Assembly (NCBI GenBank): GCA_964017235.1 | Contig: OZ024927.1 | Location: 25,005,160-25,069,159 of the forward strand | Length of the DNA stretch: 64,000 bases | Origin: Sabellastarte sp. h YS-2021 | Lineage: Eukaryota > Annelida > Polychaeta > Sabellida > Sabellidae | Direction of reading: 5' to 3' | Part shown: positions 4,650 to 43,935 of the stretch, piece by piece | How positions within the stretch are numbered: the first letter of the stretch is position 1 | How the letters are laid out: every line of letters begins with the position of its first letter | Program-made: the position numbers and the translations under genes | The notes under the pieces: model-generated | Told to the model about the DNA's origin: nothing | What the model saw: only the letters and a program-made list of their open reading frames with translations | Database searches by the model: none

Positions 4650-4799
4650 ATTAACACAAAAAATGCTTATATCTGGAAAACCATGCTAGATACAGTGATT
4701 TCGATGAAATTTTTGACCCACAAGGTATCTGCAGAGTAGCCATCCCAATTTTCAAAAATTTTGATGTGGCCAAAAATGGTGGCCATTTTGAATTTTCAA
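4650..4799 (+). repeat. Single left unit of the ~165-bp satellite
   Basis: One unit running from AAAATGCTTATATCTGGAAA to GGCCATTTTGAATTTTCA. The array resumes at about 10826, on the far side of DIRS B. It is the left half of a satellite array split by the retrotransposon. Confidence 0.85.
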
Positions 4800-4806
4800 T
4801 AATACA

Positions 4807-4976
4807 TCCTATCCAATGGACAATTGCTAATCTGCTCAGCGCAGACCGGCCCGCCAAACGTCAGAAGATGTCATGTGTTTCCACCGGTTGAGACGGTCTA
4901 GTACTGTGCACTTGCCAGGTGGCATGTCATACTTCCTTCCTGTCTAGACAGTGTGATGTCATAGCATTTTTTTTGT
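4807..4976 (+). repeat. Left inverted terminal repeat of DIRS B
   Basis: About 170 bp, highly similar to the reverse complement of about 10621-10797. Both share CTATCCAATGGACAATTGCT, a GTGTTTCCACCGG block, a CCAGGTGGC block and ACTTCCTTCCT. The outermost bases differ between ends, as in DIRS elements. Confidence 0.9.
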
Positions 4977-5099
4977 TTGGCGCGAGATCTGTACAAGTGG
5001 AATATTTCAGTGATTTAAATTTTGAAGATTATTCTGTTAAATTGTGATTCTTCATATTTTTGGTTATACCAAGTTGATTTTTAGAACTTATAGCTCAGA

Positions 5100-7347
5100 A
5101 TGTCATCCCCGGGACAACGAAGATCAGCAATTTTGATCAGCTCTCTTACTGCCCGCGTTATCGCGAGAAGAATAAAGACAAGGACCCTTGTGTTGAAAGC
5201 AAAGACACCACCACTTGTAAATTTTGTTTGGCTTTAACTCAAGAGCAGATTTCTCAGATATCCACCCCTTCATATAAACTGAAGAAAGAGAAACGTGAGG
5301 CACAAAAGTCTGAAACTGCCACCCCCACCAAAGAATCTTCTGAACTTGTTGACCCTGCTAATGTGTCTGTCATTGGGGTTGTTGGCCAGCAAGAAACTGT
5401 TAAGTCTCCACCTTCTTCTTCTGTGCCTCCGGAAAAGAAACCTAAAAAGGACAAGTTGCCTTCTAAATCCAAGAAATCTTCAGGTACCAGCTCAACTGAC
5501 ACTAAAATAGCCAAACTTGACAACAAATGGTCTGAATGCTTCAACAGGCTTAAAGCCTTGCTGCTGTCTAAGACCTTGCAACCGGCATTTTCATCTGAAG
5601 TCAAGGTTATTCCTCTTTGTTCTCCACCTACTAACATACCCAGAGATTCTGAGCATTTTTACTGGACGCACTGGCGAGGACTTCTCTGCAGAAATGCATC
5701 AGCCAGCTAGCCAAAGTCGGATTCACAGACTACCTCTACAGAGCACACTGGCAAGGGTTTCTCTGCTTCACAGCATCAACCAGCCAGCCAGCTCACATCT
5801 GAGTGACAGAAGCCTACTTCTTCAACAACTACTTCTTCAACAACCAAGGGCGCTGGCAAGGGTTCCTCTGCATCAACTGGCCAGCCAGCTTGTCACCGAC
5901 CGACTGACCTCAAGATCTCCACACAGGCGCACTGGTACAGACACTCCTGCTCTCAAGCAACAGTCCACCAGCCAGCCTCAAACCGACCGGAGCCGATCTC
6001 CAGCCTCTGGTCTCTCCGGTACAGACTCTTCTTCACACAGACATAAGTCTACTGGCAAACATCACAGCAAATCTCATGTTGACTGACCAGGTTCAACTGT
6101 AGCTACTGACACCGGCTCCCCTTCACTTCACCAACATAGAAAGGACAGTGCTTCCAGTAGAAGTTCCGGTACAGACAGTGACTTTTCCGACCGACCACCA
6201 GTTGACCTCTATACTGAGGAGGGAGAACTGTCAGAAGACCCGGATTTAACTGCTATGAAGCCCGACCAGATGCCATCAGAAGAACAGACTTATAGAGAAA
6301 CAATGAAGGGCATAAGATCGTACATGGGTTGGTCGGACATTCCAGATCTAGATAGCACCAACACTGCTTTAGACGACAACCCTTTCTCTGGTCCTGAAGC
6401 TGCTACTCCCGGAAAAGTGTCTGTGCAAATGCCTACTGAAGATTGGCTTTGTAAGAAGATTGCTAAATTGAACTTAACTCTGATTGAGGGATACCCCTCC
6501 CGAAGTTCTGAGGCTGGTGGGCTGTTGATGGACCAGTTTTTGAAAACAGCAAAGTCGCAGTCCAAGTGGTATGGGCTGTCATCCGACCACAAAGCCGACC
6601 CTGCTGCTGTTTCAAACTGGAGTACAGAGTCTTCAAAGCTGAACAGTTGTTATAGCCGGATAGCTAGACAGTCTGGAGTGACTTCTACCCCACCTACATC
6701 CAGACGTATTTCGCAGGAGGCTCTGCAAAGATGGGAGAAGTCAGCCAGAGAGGCTACAGTCATCTGTAATCAGGCTGTCAGCTTTAACAGATGTCTCTTC
6801 AGAGTGCAACAAGATATGCAGAGCCAGCTTAAAACCCTATGTCTTGAGAGCAAAGGAAAGGGTTCCTCAAAGAGTTCAGGTACCATGGACGAACTACAGC
6901 ATCTCATGGACTTTAATTCCAGCATTACACAAGCGGCTGCAAAGACCATGGAACACCTAAGTGAATTTGTTTTCGTCTAAATGGGGAACTTGACTTTGGC
7001 TAGACAAGATGCTTACCTCACACATCAAGAGTGAGATCAAGCCGAACACTGTAGCTGCACTTAGGACAGCCCCTCTACATATCCCCACCCTCTTCCCTGA
7101 TGCAGTGATTAAGAGGGCTGAGGAGGAGATCTCCCATTATGAATCAAAGGGACACTCTGGCTCTTCTCGTAGCAACGCATGCTTTCACCCTTATGAGAGG
7201 TCGGACAGGAGGTCAGATAAACGACCGGACAAGAAGGGAGATAAGCCAGCATGGAAGAACATTGGGAAGGGTCGGTACAGGAAACCTAGAGGCAAAGCTC
7301 CAAGTTACTCATCACGACCAGCCAAGGGCCAGCAGTCACATAAATGA
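5100..7347 (+). pseudogene. DIRS B gag-like region (frameshifted)
   Basis: Structural-protein region of the retrotransposon, spread over several frames. It opens at an ATG at 5100, with a frameshift within about 10 nt. A cysteine-containing N-terminal segment (C-P-R-Y ... C-K-F-C) then leads into a Lys/Ser/Pro-rich stretch ending near 5660. A low-complexity segment (about 5665-5960) repeats a Thr/Ser/Gln/Pro-rich motif. A 241-residue open stretch covers 6255-6980, and a basic, Arg/Lys/Ser-rich tail covers 7009-7347. DIRS gags are poorly conserved, so the call rests on position and composition. Frame changes near 5105, 5640, 6090 and 6980 make it non-functional. Confidence 0.75.
5665..5960 (+). 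repeat. Degenerate short repeats inside DIRS B gag
   Basis: Four diverged copies of a ~45-90 bp block containing CACTGGCAAGGGTTTCTCTG-like sequence followed by a CAGCCAGCCAGC run. They encode Ser/Gln/Ala/Pro-rich repeats and coincide with a loss of frame. Confidence 0.6.
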
Positions 7348-7436
7348 CCATTACTGTGTAGCCAAGTTACAGACACGACTGCTGGCCGGGAGCCCCACAT
7401 CAAGACAGACAATAAACAGTCATTCAAATGTAAACT

Positions 7437-8690
7437 TTCATGTTGTACCTACTGTTCTACTGTTCCCAAAAGAGAGAACTAAGTCCCGGGTCAGCAGGTT
7501 GTTATTGCAGAGAAAACAAATTAAAATATGTGAAAAGTGTTTCTTGTGTCACTCATTTGTCTTGTGTAAAACCTGTAACAAATGTCAAAAATGCTGCACA
7601 AAATCTGCCTGTAGGGGCCAGACTTCAAAGCTATTGGAAAACTTGGCTGGATCTGGGTGCCGGTCCAAAAGTGGTTCAAATTCTGAAAGAGGGTTACACC
7701 CTCCCCTTTCGGATCCCTTTACGTCAATAGATTTCAAGGATGCCTACTTCCATATACCAATACAGGAACAGTCCAGGAAATATCAGATTTCATGTCCAGG
7801 ATCAGACATACCAATTCAAAGCTCTGCCTTTCGGTCTGCCCACAGCACCCTTGGAGTTCACTGTTGTAGCAAAGGAGGTAAAACTGATGGCCATACACAA
7901 GGGTATAAGAATCCACCAGTATCTAGACGACTGGTTGGTGAGGGCCAGATCCCACCAGGTGTGTCTCCAACACACTCAAGATCTAGTGAAAATATGCCAC
8001 GAACTAGGTTGGCTAGTGAATTAGAAAAATCAGAACTGGAACCAAAACAAATCTTTGATTTTGTAGGCTACCAGTTCGACCTCAGGGCCGGTCGGGTCTG
8101 ACCGACACCGGACCGTTGGCAGAACCTTCAGGACAAAATAATAGAAATGCTATCACTGCAGGCTTGTCCGGTCCGGCAGTTCATGTCTCTGATACATTTA
8201 TTAACAGCCACAGAAAAGCAAGTTCACCTAGGCTGACTGCACATGAGACTCATACAGTGGCATCTCAAAAACAATTGGAGGGTACCAAAGTCACTAGAAA
8301 AGGTGATCCCAATCCCCCTGCACCCCCATTTACAATGGTGGCTAAAAGAAGGCAATGTCCTCACAGGTCAACCATTACACCCAATAAAACATGCTCTGCA
8401 AATCTTTACAGACGCATCAAAAGAAGGGTGGGGCGCTCACTTAAACGAGCACACTGTAAGAGGAACCTGGTCCCTTCCAGAAAGCAAGCTGCATATAAAT
8501 TATCTAGAACTCAAAGCAGTTTTCCTAGCCTTAAAAGAGTTCAAAGACCTCTGTTTAGATAGTACTGTTGGCAACAGACAACACCACAGTGGTATCATAT
8601 ATAAGGAAGGAGGCATGAGGTCGGATCCACTTTGTGCTCTTCTATGGAGAATCTTGAAATGGTGTACCAGAAAACAAGTAACTCTTAAAA
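7437..8690 (+). pseudogene. DIRS B reverse transcriptase / RNase H, internally deleted
   Basis: Reverse transcriptase and RNase H of the element. The N-terminal portion has LPVGARLQSYWKTWLDLGAG and ILKEGYTLPF (about 7600-7715). RT motifs follow: SIDFKDAYFHIPI (about 7726-7765), ALPFGLPTAP, and the catalytic YLDD at 7920-7931. RNase H has FTDASKEGWGAHL and YLELKAVFLALKEFKD (about 8400-8550). The RT finger region expected between LPF and SIDFKDAY is absent. Frame changes occur near 7725, 7790 and 8020, and there are stops near 8099 and 8693. Family assignment is strong; activity is excluded. Confidence 0.9.
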
Positions 8691-8695
8691 CCTGA

Positions 8696-9130
8696 CACAT
8701 TCCAGGCCGGCTGAACGTGGTAGCAGACAAGCTATCCAGGCTAGGCCAGACCATCCAAAGAGAGTGGTCTCTCCTTCCAGAGATATTCCAGGCATTGTGC
8801 CGCAGATGGCACCGGCCAAAAATAGACCTTTTTGCCACGCGGTTCAACAAGTTGCCTCTGTTTGTGTCACCGGTACCGGATCCCCTGGCCGCAGCAGTGG
8901 ATGCACTCAGTCTGCCATGGGAGGATCTTTCCACCAGCAGCCATCTTGGCCAAAGTGGTGGAAAAGTTGCAGGACTCCCCGTGCAAGAGAATCATTCTCA
9001 TTGCTCTGGGTTGGCCCAACATGCCCTGGTTCTGGAACCTAGTGGCAATGTCCAGACAAATCCCACTGAGCCTGCCAAATCTGCCCAATCTCCTTACTCA
9101 GCCCTTCAATCAGATCCCTCACAGAAATCT
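8696..9130 (+). pseudogene. DIRS B methyltransferase-like segment
   Basis: Follows RNase H directly. It begins IPGRLNVVADKLSRL and continues IDLFATRFN, PLFVSPVPDPLAAAVDALSL and, after a frame change near 8930, FPPAAILAKVVEKL and IILIALGWPNMPWFWNL. In DIRS1-type elements this position holds a Dam-like N6-adenine methyltransferase domain. The expected N-P-P-Y-like site corresponds here to FPPA, so catalytic competence is doubtful even apart from the frameshift. The functional label is inferred from family architecture. Confidence 0.6.
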
Positions 9131-9185
9131 GACAAACTAGACTCCTAGAGCCACAGCAATCAAAGAGCAGGGCTTCTCTGAGGCA

Positions 9186-10225
9186 GTGGCAACAAGAATT
9201 GAGGCTCCTCAAAGGGGATCCACCAGATCAGTCTATGAGGCAAAGTGGACCATTTTTACAAAATGGTGCATCACTAATCAGGTGAACTTCAGGGCACCCC
9301 CTGTAAAGTCAGTTGCTGACTTCCTTATGTACCTATTTCAGGACAGGAAGTTACAGCCCAGCACCATTGATGGTTACAGGTCAGCCATTGCTGATAAACT
9401 GGGAAACTCACCCTTTAACATCAGCAAGGATGAAAATCTCACCCGTCTCCTGGATAGTTTCCATAGAGACAGACCCAAAGGCCGGAGGGGTATCCCCTCC
9501 TGGAACCTCTCACTGGTCTTGCACGAGCTAAGAAAGGCTCCTTTTGAACCAATCAAGGAGGCCTCTGTGAAGCATTTGACCTTCAAGACAGTTTTCCTCT
9601 TGGCCCTTGGGTCGGGTATGCGCAGAAGTGAGATACATGCCTGGCAAAACAGAAATATCAGACACCAATCTGACTGGTCCAAGGTGTCCCTGTATCCATC
9701 ACCCAGCTTTCTTTCAAAGAATCAGCTGGCCAAAGAGGGTCCGGATAGTGTGGCCCCAGTGGTTATACCAGCCCTGGCCCCAACTCTGGATAGATCCCTC
9801 CAGTCTGACAGGTCCCTCTGTCCGGTCAGAGCATTGCACTATTATTTGGACAGGACCTCAGGCAGAATAAGGAGTTGGTCTTTGTCTCCTTTAAGAAAGG
9901 CTTTGACAAAGACATCTCACCTGCCAGTAGTATAAGGTGCGATTGCCGCACCTTATACTACTCCTGCCACTATCTCCTCATGGATCAAACAGACTGTGAT
10001 CCTATGTTATGAGCTCTCAGACCAAGAGGCCCACACTTTACATCAGCTTAAAGCCCATGATGTCAGGGTCTTTGCTGCTTCTAAGGCCTTCCAGTCAGGA
10101 GTCTTCTTGGAACAAATCCTGTCAGCCTGCCACTGGAAGTCACATATAATACCTTCACTCAATTCTATTTGAAGGATGTGGCATGGACTGATTCAGAACT
10201 CTATCACCTGGGACCTGTAGTGGCT
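9186..10225 (+). pseudogene. DIRS B tyrosine recombinase, interrupted
   Basis: Integrase of the element. The open stretch 9186-9935 contains a SAM-like N-terminal part (residues about 1-110) and the first catalytic Arg in LALGSGMRRSEIHAW (about 9600-9645). A frameshift at about 9861-9865 moves the reading to LVFVSFKKGFDKDISPA. A 43-nt insertion (9926-9968) with a perfect palindrome then breaks the frame again. Beyond it the sequence regains homology: ISSWIKQTV, AHDVRVFAASKAF (catalytic H and R, near 10050) and FYLKDVAWTD with the catalytic Tyr codon at 10166-10168. A further one-base indel lies near 10150. All catalytic residues survive but in different frames. Confidence 0.9.
9926..9962. repeat. 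Perfect 37-bp palindrome inserted in the recombinase
   Basis: Two 16-bp arms (AGTAGTATAAGGTGCG and its exact reverse complement) around a 5-nt loop (ATTGC). It is flanked by direct repeats CCTGCC at 9920-9925 and 9963-9968. Removing the palindrome and one repeat leaves conserved recombinase coding sequence continuous on both sides, so it is an insertion. Confidence 0.85.
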
Positions 10226-10460
10226 GCTCAGGAGATCCACCAATAACCCAGGGTTTAGAGGAGATTTGTACATAGGTAAATAGTTGTTCATACAAAAAAA
10301 AACCTGTGACATACTTCCTTCGGGAGGTTTATTTCTATTTCTTATGGGACTGAGCTCATCCCTCTCTTCCCCTACCTCAGAGCAGGTCTGTTAAAAAGAG
10401 GGGGGGCAAAGTTCATCTAAGTCCCTAATAACTTACCTGCTGGCGAAGTGGTAGTTATTC

Positions 10461-10552
10461 AGCAATTGTCCATTGGATAGGATGTATTAACACAATAAAA
10501 TTGCAAATTTAATAAGTAAATTAAATTTTTATAAGTTAATACTCTATCCAAT
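10461..10552. repeat. Internal complementary region of DIRS B
   Basis: Positions 10461-10489 are the exact 29-nt reverse complement of the left terminus 4800-4828. About 10490-10552 is an imperfect reverse complement of the right terminus (about 10776-10826). The joined order equals the junction of a circularised element, the hallmark of DIRS internal complementary regions. Confidence 0.92.
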
Positions 10553-10620
10553 GGACACACAAGACTCTCCCAAACTGGCCCGGCTATTAACTTACTAGGG
10601 CCATAATAGGTTTAAACAAC

Positions 10621-10825
10621 AAAAAAGATGCTATGACGTCACGCTGTCTAGAAAGGAAGGAAGTACGACACGCCACCTGGTGAGTCCACAGTACTGGACC
10701 GGCCCAGCCGGTGGAAACACAGGACGTCTTTTTCTGACATTGGGTGGGCCGGTCTGCACCGACCGGATTAGCAATTGTCCATTGGATAGGGTAGTAACTT
10801 ATAAAAATTTACTTATTAAATTTGC
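10621..10825 (-). repeat. Right inverted terminal repeat of DIRS B
   Basis: Reverse complement of the left repeat, with an additional ~30-bp AT-rich outer extension (TTATAAAAATTTACTTATTA). It abuts satellite sequence at about 10826. Confidence 0.9.
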
Positions 10826-11700
10826 ATATTTTTTTTTGCAAAAATTGCAACACACAAAAATGCTTATATCTTGAAAACCGTGTGAGATAAAGCGATTTCT
10901 TTGAATTTTTTTACCCACAGGGTATCTCTGAAAAGTAGACATCCCAATTTTCAACAAATTTTGTCTCTCCAAAAATGGCGGCAATTTTGAATTTTTGAAT
11001 CTTCAGAAAAATTGCAAGAAAAAAATGCTTACATCTGGAAAACCCTGCGAGATAGAGTAATTTCGAAGAAATTTTTAACCCACAGGGTACCGCTGTAGAG
11101 TAGCCCATCCCAATTTCAAAAAAAATTTTGTCTCACCAAAGATGGCAGCCGTTTTGAATTGTTTGATTTTTCAGAAAATTGCAAAAAACAAAAATGCTGC
11201 TATTTCGAAAACCGTGCTAGACAGAGAGATTTCGGCAAAATTTTTGGTTCGCAGGGTATCTCTGTCGAGTAGCAATGCCATTTTTGTCTCGCCAAACATG
11301 GCGGCCATTTTGAATTTTCAGATATTTTGCAAAAATTGCAAAACTCAAAAATACTTATATCTTGAAAATCATGCTAGATAGAGCGATTTCGACAAAATTT
11401 TTGACCTGTGTTGCATCTGTCCATGATATAGCCATCCCAGTTTTTCAACAAATTTTTGTCTCGCCAAAAATGATGGCCATTTTGAATTTTCAAATTTTCA
11501 GAAAAATTGCAATACACAAAAATGCTTATATCGTGAAAACCATGCTAAATAGAACAATTTTGATGAAATTTTTGACCTGCAGTATGGCAGGGTAGCCATC
11601 CCAATTTTCAAAAATTGTTGTGCCATCAAAAATGGCGGCCATTTTGAATTTTCGAAAAAATTGCAAGAAAAAATGCTCACATCTGGAAAACCCTGCGAGG
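10826..11700 (+). repeat. Tandem satellite, ~157-172 bp period
   Basis: About five and a half units, each with a TGCTTATATCTGGAAAACC-like start, a GATAGAGCGATTTCG-like block, a CACAGGGTATCTCTG-like block and the near-palindromic core AAAATGGCGGCCATTTT. Cores lie near 10978, 11145, 11301, 11473 and 11637. The array is continuous with the unit at 4650-4799 on the other side of DIRS B. Confidence 0.9.
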
Positions 11701-38115: not shown

Positions 38116-39512
38116 AGTAAATAAGCAAAATAAGAAATAGTACATGAGAGATTGGGTTCCCACTTTTTTGCATTGTGGATGCTGCAAAATTCCCACCTAG
38201 CCAGCAAGCTGAGTTAGGGTCATAATATAATTATGCAGAATCTAGGATTTTAGAGCCAATAATTCTGAAATACAATATACTGTACATATTTATTCACCAG
38301 AATATGACTGGTAGATTCAAACAAATTAATCACTCGATTTTGGAATTTCCAATTTTCAAATGGTTGTCACAGAAATTGGCAACATGTCATTTTGATGTCA
38401 GTGCTTATATATAATGCATAGCATGTTCATAGGGCTTATTATAACATTTTATTTTATGATTAATTGTATGTGTACATAGTTGAAGGACTTAGCCGTGTCT
38501 TACAAATACATTAATGGTCTCATTTAGCTCACCCAAAGTATGGCCATGTGTATTGAGAAGAGTCCCTTCTCAGAATATAACAGATTTCATGCCTTGTTTT
38601 GCTTTTTTCTCTTACAACAGGCAGTGTTATGTTGTTTTGCCAAAGATACCTGGGGTAGGACTTTTACAGTCTGGATGGTGTTTCTGTCTGTAATAAAACA
38701 GTGGTTGGACTATTTATATTTATATTGTATACATATAAACTTACTGATTTTAGTGACATTTTAAATTGGGGAAGGACTATCTGATATACCTTGAATGCAT
38801 GCTTAATATGAAAATTTATGACAATGGGTTTTCAAAATCTGTTTGTCAACTTTTGTCTTCCTGTGAAAATGATCATCATGTAATTTCTGTTGACATAAGG
38901 GATGGCAGAGTTTTTCCTGATTCTGGTTTTTCTTTTCCTGTGCATTTCAATAATTACTCTTTAATATTGGAGTATCATATATAAATACACTTTAACATTT
39001 CCAAGTGTGAGCCTTTAGATATTGAAATATTTTGATATCTATTTAATTATATTGAGGAATTCAGAAAACGAAGAAAAAACATTGAATTATAGTGTGTCAT
39101 TTTCATGTGGTTTGGTACTTGGCTGTGTGCTGAGGAATTGTTCATTAAAATCTCTGCACATTGTGGGCAATGTCCACTGTAAATAAGGTTCACATAAAAT
39201 TGGATAAAATCGGGTAAGATCAGATAAAAGTGTTAACAGAGCAGTCAGTGATTGGATAGCCTTAACTAAGTTTATCTTTGGAAGAAGAGGGTGTCCTGCA
39301 TAAAACTGGGGGACTGCTGATATTCATAAGACAGTAGGGCACATTCAAGAAAATATCTTCTCGATATTTTCTTGAATTTCTGTTTGTATACTTTCTGGAA
39401 CATGTTTTTTGTTTAATGTATATTTTATGTATGCATTACTTTTTGTTTTTGTTTAAAGGTCTGGGATATTTTAAATAAATTTAAAACAAATAACATTCTT
39501 TTCTCTGAATAG
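38116..39512. other. Non-coding, unassigned
   Basis: No convincing exon. A short open stretch at 38540-38764 has no recognisable motif. Confidence 0.45.
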
Positions 39513-43180: not shown

Positions 43181-43935
43181 GGCTATTTTGAGTACTGAAA
43201 AAGGCAAATGTGCTCATATCTCCTAAACCGTGCGAGATAGAGCGATTTCGTCAAAATTTTCGACCATAGGGTATGCGAGCAGTGCACTCTTGGCAATTTC
43301 AAGAAATCTTCCCCTCCCCAAAAATGGCGGCCATTTTGAATTTTCGAATTTTTCCCAAAAATGGCAAAACACAAATTTGCTTCTATCTCCTTAACCGTGT
43401 GAGATAGAGTGATTTCGTCGAAATTTTCGACCCACAGGGTATCTGAGCAATGTACTCTTGGCAATTTTCAAAAATTTTCCTCTTCCCACATATGGCGGCC
43501 ATTTTGAATTTTCAAATTTTTGCCTAAAATGGCAAAACACAAAATTGATTCTATCTCCTTAACTGTGCGAGATAGAGCGATTTCGTCGAAATTTTCGACC
43601 CACAGGGTATCTAAGAAATGTACTCTTGGAAATTTTCAAAACATTTTCCCCTCCCCACATATGGCGGCCATTTTGAATTTTTTCCCAAAATGGAAAAACA
43701 CAAATTTGCTTCTATCTCCTTAACCGTGCAAAATAGAGTTATTTCGTTGAAATTTTCGACCCATAGGGTATCTAAGAAATGTACTCTTGGCAATTTTCAA
43801 AAAATTTTCCTCTTCCCAAAAATGGCGGCCATTTTGAATTTTCGAATTTTTGCCAAAAATAGAAAAACAGAAATTTGCTTCTATCCTCTTAACCGTGCAA
43901 GGTAGAGTGACTTCGTCAAAATTTTCGACCCAACC
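43181..43935 (+). repeat. Second block of the ~165-bp satellite
   Basis: About four and a half units with GAGATAGAGCGATTTCGTC and ATGGCGGCCATTTTGAATTT. The core recurs near 43327, 43495, 43664 and 43825. It is a diverged subfamily of the array at 10826-11700. Confidence 0.9.

Follow-up and report, generated by a model that had tools for sequence, protein, structure and literature searches.

Palindromic insertions with Maverick-type ends in the genome of the annelid Sabellastarte

The closest described systems to the short palindrome analyzed here are the Maverick/Polinton elements of the (AGT)2 end type. In vertebrate Mavericks, the commonest ends are 5'-(AGT)2//(ACT)2-3' and intact elements have 6-bp target-site duplications (TSDs) (PMC8097293). 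Their end repeats are expected to serve the jumping-back initiation of protein-primed replication (PMC8097293). The palindrome has the same AGTAGT//ACTACT ends, 6-bp TSD, and terminal inverted repeats, and the long copies found in its host genome are also Maverick-like, being mostly 19.6-23 kb and having a packaging-ATPase-like (Pox_A32) match. Unlike a Maverick, the palindromic insertion is reduced to 16 nt of one end and 23 nt of the other and is devoid of genes.

MITEs and other deletion derivatives of DNA transposons resemble the palindrome in being short and non-coding, with two inverted ends and a TSD. In contrast to them, the tiny insertions described below measure only 18-58 bp, have many different junctions, and give no sign of having been copied as a unit; they have no common internal sequence and junction of the kind by which a MITE is defined. 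The excision footprints of the P element, like the tiny scars, combine the TSD with short remnants of both ends, with filler and microhomology at the join. However, the P element makes an 8-bp TSD and moves with a cut-and-paste transposase, whereas the tiny scars would imply a retroviral-type integrase. Another parallel comes from adenovirus, a protein-primed linear DNA: when E4-deleted virus infects cells, Mre11, together with CtIP, clips its protein-linked ends (PMC7552057). Such host cutting by MRN/CtIP slightly inside the ends is similar to what we propose for the scars; it is described there on free viral DNA (PMC7552057), and for Mavericks or integrated scars it is an analogy. Among the papers listed by our literature searches, which were judged by title and opening of the abstract and took in few subscription journals, we found no description of end-only Maverick insertions of 18-60 bp. 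Maverick ends and 6-bp TSDs are already known; what is new here is Maverick-type insertions reduced to their tips.

A palindromic insertion in a DIRS-like element

The palindrome lies in a stretch of 64,000 nucleotides of Sabellastarte sp. h YS-2021 (GCA_964017235.1, contig OZ024927.1), hereafter the window. Positions 4806..10790 (+ strand, approximate borders) hold an element with inverted terminal repeats at ~4806-4977 and ~10618-10790, which are ~85% alike; near 10467 it also contains a complementary stretch in its interior. From this layout and from an earlier note on the sequence, we take it to be DIRS-like. The insertion, at 9926, is hosted by decayed frames of a DIRS-type tyrosine recombinase (9141..10169, + strand). 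The decay extends beyond the insertion, with, by our own reading, a further frameshift just upstream near 9860, and with stops downstream. Pfam gave no match above cut-off on these frames, and no relatives of the recombinase were found in viral contigs or phages. On both sides of the DIRS element, at 4653-4800 and 10830-11700, lies a diverged repeat ('...ccaaaaatggcggccattttgaattttc...') that occurs again at 43205-43930; the element may have inserted into this repeat.

From 9920 to 9968, the window shows CCTGCC, then the left arm AGTAGTATAAGGTGCG, a loop of ATTGC, a right arm (9947-9962) that is perfectly complementary to the left one in reverse, and a second CCTGCC. The 16-bp arms, 5-nt loop, and CCTGCC on both sides are exactly those reported in the earlier note, and the continuity of the coding sequence across the insert, also claimed there, is borne out: the recombinase frame ends with ...FDKDISPA on the left and resumes with TISSWIKQ... 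on the right. By arm length, the palindrome is the top perfect hairpin of the window for loops of up to 12 nt, and in 40 Markov shuffles of the window the longest arms reached 9-13 nt, versus the 16 nt of the real sequence. Its folding as single-stranded DNA is predicted at -16.9 kcal/mol (z = -8.9). Searched exactly, the palindrome has no match in the viral collection and none in the prokaryote collection, and Rfam gave 12 weak matches, none near the gathering score. The single match of the arm in a viral contig (of 36 kb) was taken as chance after examination of the 261 bases around it. The window has a second perfect hairpin at 39343-39377, with 15-nt arms and a 5-nt loop, which lies outside the Maverick class because its border direct repeats are of at most 3 nt and it has no AGTAGT end.

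Other copies of the DIRS element lack the palindrome. With a probe of 451 bases spanning the site, we obtained 42 matches in the host genome (1.79-Gb assembly), 30 of which were cut out for alignment, one of them being the window's own copy. The 29 others all have one CCTGCC-like hexamer without the 43 extra bases, and the matches of the two nearest relatives listed (94% and 92%), which were outside the alignment, also break at the site. Since all 29 copies are uninterrupted, the locus holds a 43-bp insertion with a 6-bp TSD, the left copy at 9920..9925 and the right one at 9963..9968. Of the two possibilities raised in the earlier note, an extremely small TIR element and a palindromic insertion with a TSD, the second is upheld, and the 29 copies speak against an ancestral palindrome shared by the DIRS copies, which the note had named as a refuting condition. 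A 7-bp reading of the direct repeat (CCTGCCA) is also possible, since the host base that follows it, A, is also the first base of the palindrome. Such a reading is possible in 13 of the 40 tiny insertions with perfect TSDs (this one included), which is about the chance level, and the TSD was hence taken as 6 bp.

Long elements sharing the arm

The arm is not unique in the genome: it has 55 exact copies, most of them paired in inverted orientation. When exact copies are paired with their inverted neighbors, a few ends having one mismatch, 17 of the 28 pairs span 19.59-19.74 kb, six span from 9.0 to 39 kb, and five are tiny (33, 37, 38, 40, and 58 bp). When up to two mismatches are tolerated, the number of arm matches does not exceed that of the reversed control (224+229 vs 271+215), so that the signal rests on the exact copies and their pairing. 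The long elements, family A in what follows, have the terminus AGTAGTATAAGGTGCGGCAATCGATCGACATTT... on both sides, with a terminal inverted repeat of ~145 nt (91-93% identity in three elements aligned with gaps). Their 6-bp TSDs are perfect in 18 of the 19 true pairs, one wrongly paired row being left out, and have one mismatch in the 19th; in one of the 19 (17.8 kb), the terminal sequence is related but distinct. The longer relative sharing the arm that the earlier note had proposed to look for does exist, as elements of ~20 kb.

These termini give a simple decoding of the palindrome, which has the end motif AGTAGT...ACTACT, i.e., 5'-(AGT)2//(ACT)2-3'. Positions 9926..9941 (+ strand) match nt 1-16 of the family-A terminal inverted repeat, starting with AGTAGT, and form the stub of one end. 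The stub of the other end, at 9940..9962 (- strand), matches nt 1-23 of the same repeat, running from 9962 to 9940. The two stubs share CG (9940-9941), which is the junction microhomology. The apparent loop ATTGC (9942..9946) is no separate feature: read on the - strand, it is nt 17-21 of the terminal repeat, and it results from the unequal part of the longer, 23-nt stub.

The identity of the arms with these termini bears on the mechanism that the earlier note had offered as independent of insertion, template switching at a hairpin. Template switching is one source of genomic hairpins (PMC8794818). In its simple, local form it is at odds with the TSD and with arms that match dispersed ~20-kb elements, whereas the longest exact match of the arm in the rest of the window is 11 nt. 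A chance palindrome or an assembly artifact, like local switching, also leaves aside the 40 cases that have perfect TSDs of their own, and we find this group of explanations hardly credible.

The gene content of the long elements was read in family A only. Family-A pieces have a packaging-ATPase-like Pox_A32 match (E 8e-7, 29.2 bits vs a cut-off of 22.8) and a match to Peptidase_C5, the adenovirus-type cysteine protease, that lies under the cut-off (E 0.002, 18.1 bits vs 21.3). A family-A frame of 665 aa has the motifs NSSYG and DTDS, which we take to be candidate polymerase B motifs. Pfam gave no DNA polymerase match on this frame or on the scanned family-A pieces, and BLASTP gave no match between the frame and a PF03175-positive piece of 198 aa from this genome. 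The frame has no relatives in viral contigs and only weak Vsr-endonuclease matches among PDB sequences. No retroviral-type integrase was found in the open frames scanned on family-A pieces, a scan that took in few frames shorter than 100-120 aa. By their ends, TSD, size, and ATPase match, the long family-A elements are presumably Maverick-type, their polymerase being a candidate only and their integrase presumed. Elsewhere in the host genome, PF03175 (DNA_pol_B_2) has 116 matches (76 of the 1309 candidates scored), many of them in frames of ~1115-1123 aa, and none of the 40 places compared falls inside a family-A span; these matches with long open frames suggest additional Maverick families. 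Family-A pieces also encode domains that look like captured host regulators, namely RING-finger and BIR (inhibitor-of-apoptosis) domains (L085 1434-2150, L135 2543-3145).

A genome-wide class of tiny end-only insertions

We searched the host genome for the end pattern AGTAGTATA-N0-30-TATACTACT and identified 56 places, versus two for the reversed control. The same pattern with a gap of 31-61 was found at 5 places (2 in the control), with a gap of 62-92 at 3 (10 in the control), and with a gap of 93-123 at 2 (10 in the control). Among the ten places with gaps of 31-123, two have a TSD with at most one mismatch (L012, of 58 bp, and L144, of 134 bp), seven have two or more TSD mismatches, and the last is a chance pairing of the tiny element L060 with a remote site. 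In the one genome that the search covered, the tiny insertions form a genome-wide class whose sizes stop at a sharp upper limit. The counts of scars are lower bounds, because the pattern required nine exact bases per side. A 29-bp scar with the perfect TSD AAGGAG (L154) has a shorter stub of only 6 nt.

The set of 52 tiny elements comprises 50 pattern places, the 58-bp one, and one on contig 20, five of the 56 places being left out. They measure 18-58 bp, with a median of 33 for the 47 whose TSD copies differ at no more than one position. These 47 comprise 40 elements with a perfect TSD and 7 with a single mismatch, and the remaining 5 of the 52 have no convincing TSD, whereas the flanks of different loci, taken as a control, give perfect TSDs in 1 of 2652 pairs and at most one mismatch in 37 of 2652. 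No two of the 40 perfect TSDs are alike, and other copies flanked by different 6-bp duplications, which the earlier note had suggested searching for, are thus present in the host genome. When the flanks of the tiny loci were compared with one another, only two short stretches (37 and 66 bp) matched in part, and none of the loci proved to be a duplicate of another. A YR dinucleotide stands at the TSD center in 27 of the 40 tiny elements (p 4e-9) and in 15 of 22 long ones (p 1e-5), versus 23% of the hexamers of the window, with no difference in this target preference between the two classes. The bias was first noticed in tiny data that were also tested; the long class is an independent check, although it was read before the test.

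The tiny elements draw on at least four end families, A to D. The terminus of family B is AGTAGTATATGATGCGGCAATCGATCG... and those of families C and D are AGTAGTATATAT/CCGAGTGT..., whose exact ends number 134+135 genome-wide versus 0 in the control. Among the C/D end pairs listed, many lie 22-23 kb apart, and of the five examined for TSDs, four could be read on both sides, all with perfect TSDs. Given the many junctions and the at least four Maverick-type end families, the tiny insertions look like independent scars of ~20-kb elements and not like copies of a 37-bp element. The complete tiny mobile unit, copying itself, that the earlier note had entertained is therefore set aside.

An alternative origin of such remnants would be ordinary internal deletion of old Mavericks, or MITE-like derivatives that went on to spread as copies. 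Copies shortened to 9.0 and 11.2 kb are present in the host genome and fit such a process, as does a 460-bp copy in family C. However, the sizes are bimodal, with no family-A neighbor pair between 58 bp and 9 kb among the 28, and gaps of 31-123 are found near the control level. The scars did not multiply as copies either, since their junctions differ from scar to scar. We consider this origin very improbable.

Junctions, partial products, and a proposed mechanism

Exact joins of two stubs of families A-D, without any extra base, account for 29 of the 47 tiny elements whose TSDs have one mismatch at most. Their stubs are 10-23 nt long (median 16) and show an excess of microhomology: they overlap by 1.76 nt on average, where random blunt joins give 0.90 (a value as high as the observed one came up in 6 of 2000 simulations), and by at least 1 nt in 23 of the 29 versus ~11 expected, under a null that depends on the chosen stub range of 9-24 nt. 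The other 18 have, for some, other end families and, for others, mismatches or a few filler bases. One family-A case has stubs of 33 and 21 nt with four extra bases between them.

Three larger products are instructive in this respect. L144 (G000:C3:93824053-93824186, 134 bp, TSD cactat/cactgt) consists of a 22-nt stub, a scrap of ~92 bp, and a stub of ~20 nt with a few mismatches. The scrap is Maverick sequence usually found ~0.5-0.6 kb inside one end, and at one end only in three elements. L163 (G000:C2:184363174-184363673), a family-C element of 460 bp with a perfect 6-bp TSD, has one end of 23 nt and is an intermediate between the scars and the long copies. L027, which is one end of a 9-kb copy, keeps ~25 nt of terminus; the sequence beyond matches, further on, the interior of the element. 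A cut point at ~20-25 nt from the terminus hence recurs in all three, whatever the amount of interior kept.

We conclude that the palindrome is probably an end-only insertion of a ~19.7-kb Maverick (Polinton-type) element of family A, whose interior was cut near protein-bound ends and whose remaining tips were closed by end joining. An integrase would have joined both family-A ends to a 6-bp staggered target in the DIRS recombinase gene, and this joining of both ends would account for the duplication of CCTGCC. The ends would be shielded over ~20-25 bp by a bound protein, presumably the integrase and/or the expected terminal protein. The interior would have been cut away beyond the protein-bound tips, probably during or soon after integration and possibly, by analogy with adenovirus, through clipping of the protein-blocked ends by a host activity of the MRN/CtIP type. 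Nearly the whole element would thereby have been lost, and the 16-nt and 23-nt tips, still attached to the chromosome, would have been closed by microhomology-mediated end joining at the 2-nt CG.

The main rival is an excision footprint, i.e., a resident full-length Maverick that was later cut 10-25 nt inside each end, with the gap end-joined. It gives the same anatomy of TSD, two short stubs, microhomology, and occasional filler or interior scrap, and the one-sided products L163 and L027 fit it as well. On the other hand, none of the 29 other DIRS copies aligned has a full-length copy at the site, which is a weak argument because each is a separate locus, and we know of no retroviral-type integrase that excises. 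Excision seems to us unlikely.

Replication by-products are a weaker rival. Here, aborted protein-primed strands would have snapped back, or two of them would have annealed at their tips in the manner of a primer dimer, and the product would then have integrated as a mini-Maverick of 30-60 bp with a proper end on each side. Nucleotides 1 to x of the terminal inverted repeat followed by the reverse of its nucleotides 1 to y, with self-complementary overlaps of 1-6 nt, are what such priming is expected to give, and the end repeats fit the jumping-back initiation expected for Mavericks (PMC8097293). However, the apparent loop is shorter than 3 nt in 12 of the 47 tiny elements, and simple hairpin priming fails for these. 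Elements down to 18 bp (L057) also look too short for their two ends to sit in one integrase complex, and L144 with its interior scrap, together with the one-sided L163 and L027, suggests breakage and joining and not early abortion. Snap-back hairpins as the main mechanism are disfavored by these short loops and by L144, and we judge an origin in replication by-products to be less likely still than excision.

The wider form of the favored reading, in which the interior is cut away at integration, is that the dozens of scars are records of failed Maverick integrations: almost all of the ~20-kb element would have been removed from 10-25 nt inside its protein-bound tips, possibly by host nucleases that act on protein-blocked ends, and the chromosome would have been sealed over a scar of 18-58 bp. 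We regard this as plausible, although we would stop short of calling it probable. If it holds, the lengths of the scars would give a natural footprint of the complex at the tips, formed by the integrase or the terminal protein, and the number of scars relative to that of full copies would measure how often insertion is stopped. The scars mark sites that were once reached by Mavericks and where none is left now. Insertions of 18-58 bp bearing the full integrase signature would be easily overlooked as unexplained palindromic indels. As a class, they make the fate of protein-primed virus-like DNA at integration, including its cutting by the host, testable by sequence.

Some further elements were observed alongside these. 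Five tiny elements, namely L063 (G000:C8:1529411-1529456), L045, L067, L071, and L076, have ends outside families A-D, pointing to more end families. The end coordinates at G000:C1:41520167-41567865 suggest a family-C element with a family-D element (41542129-41565324) apparently nested inside it. Finally, at the single family-B ends L146 and L148, which have no partner within the ~230 nt read, the family sequence is left after ~22-25 nt, and these ends may be one-sided scars.
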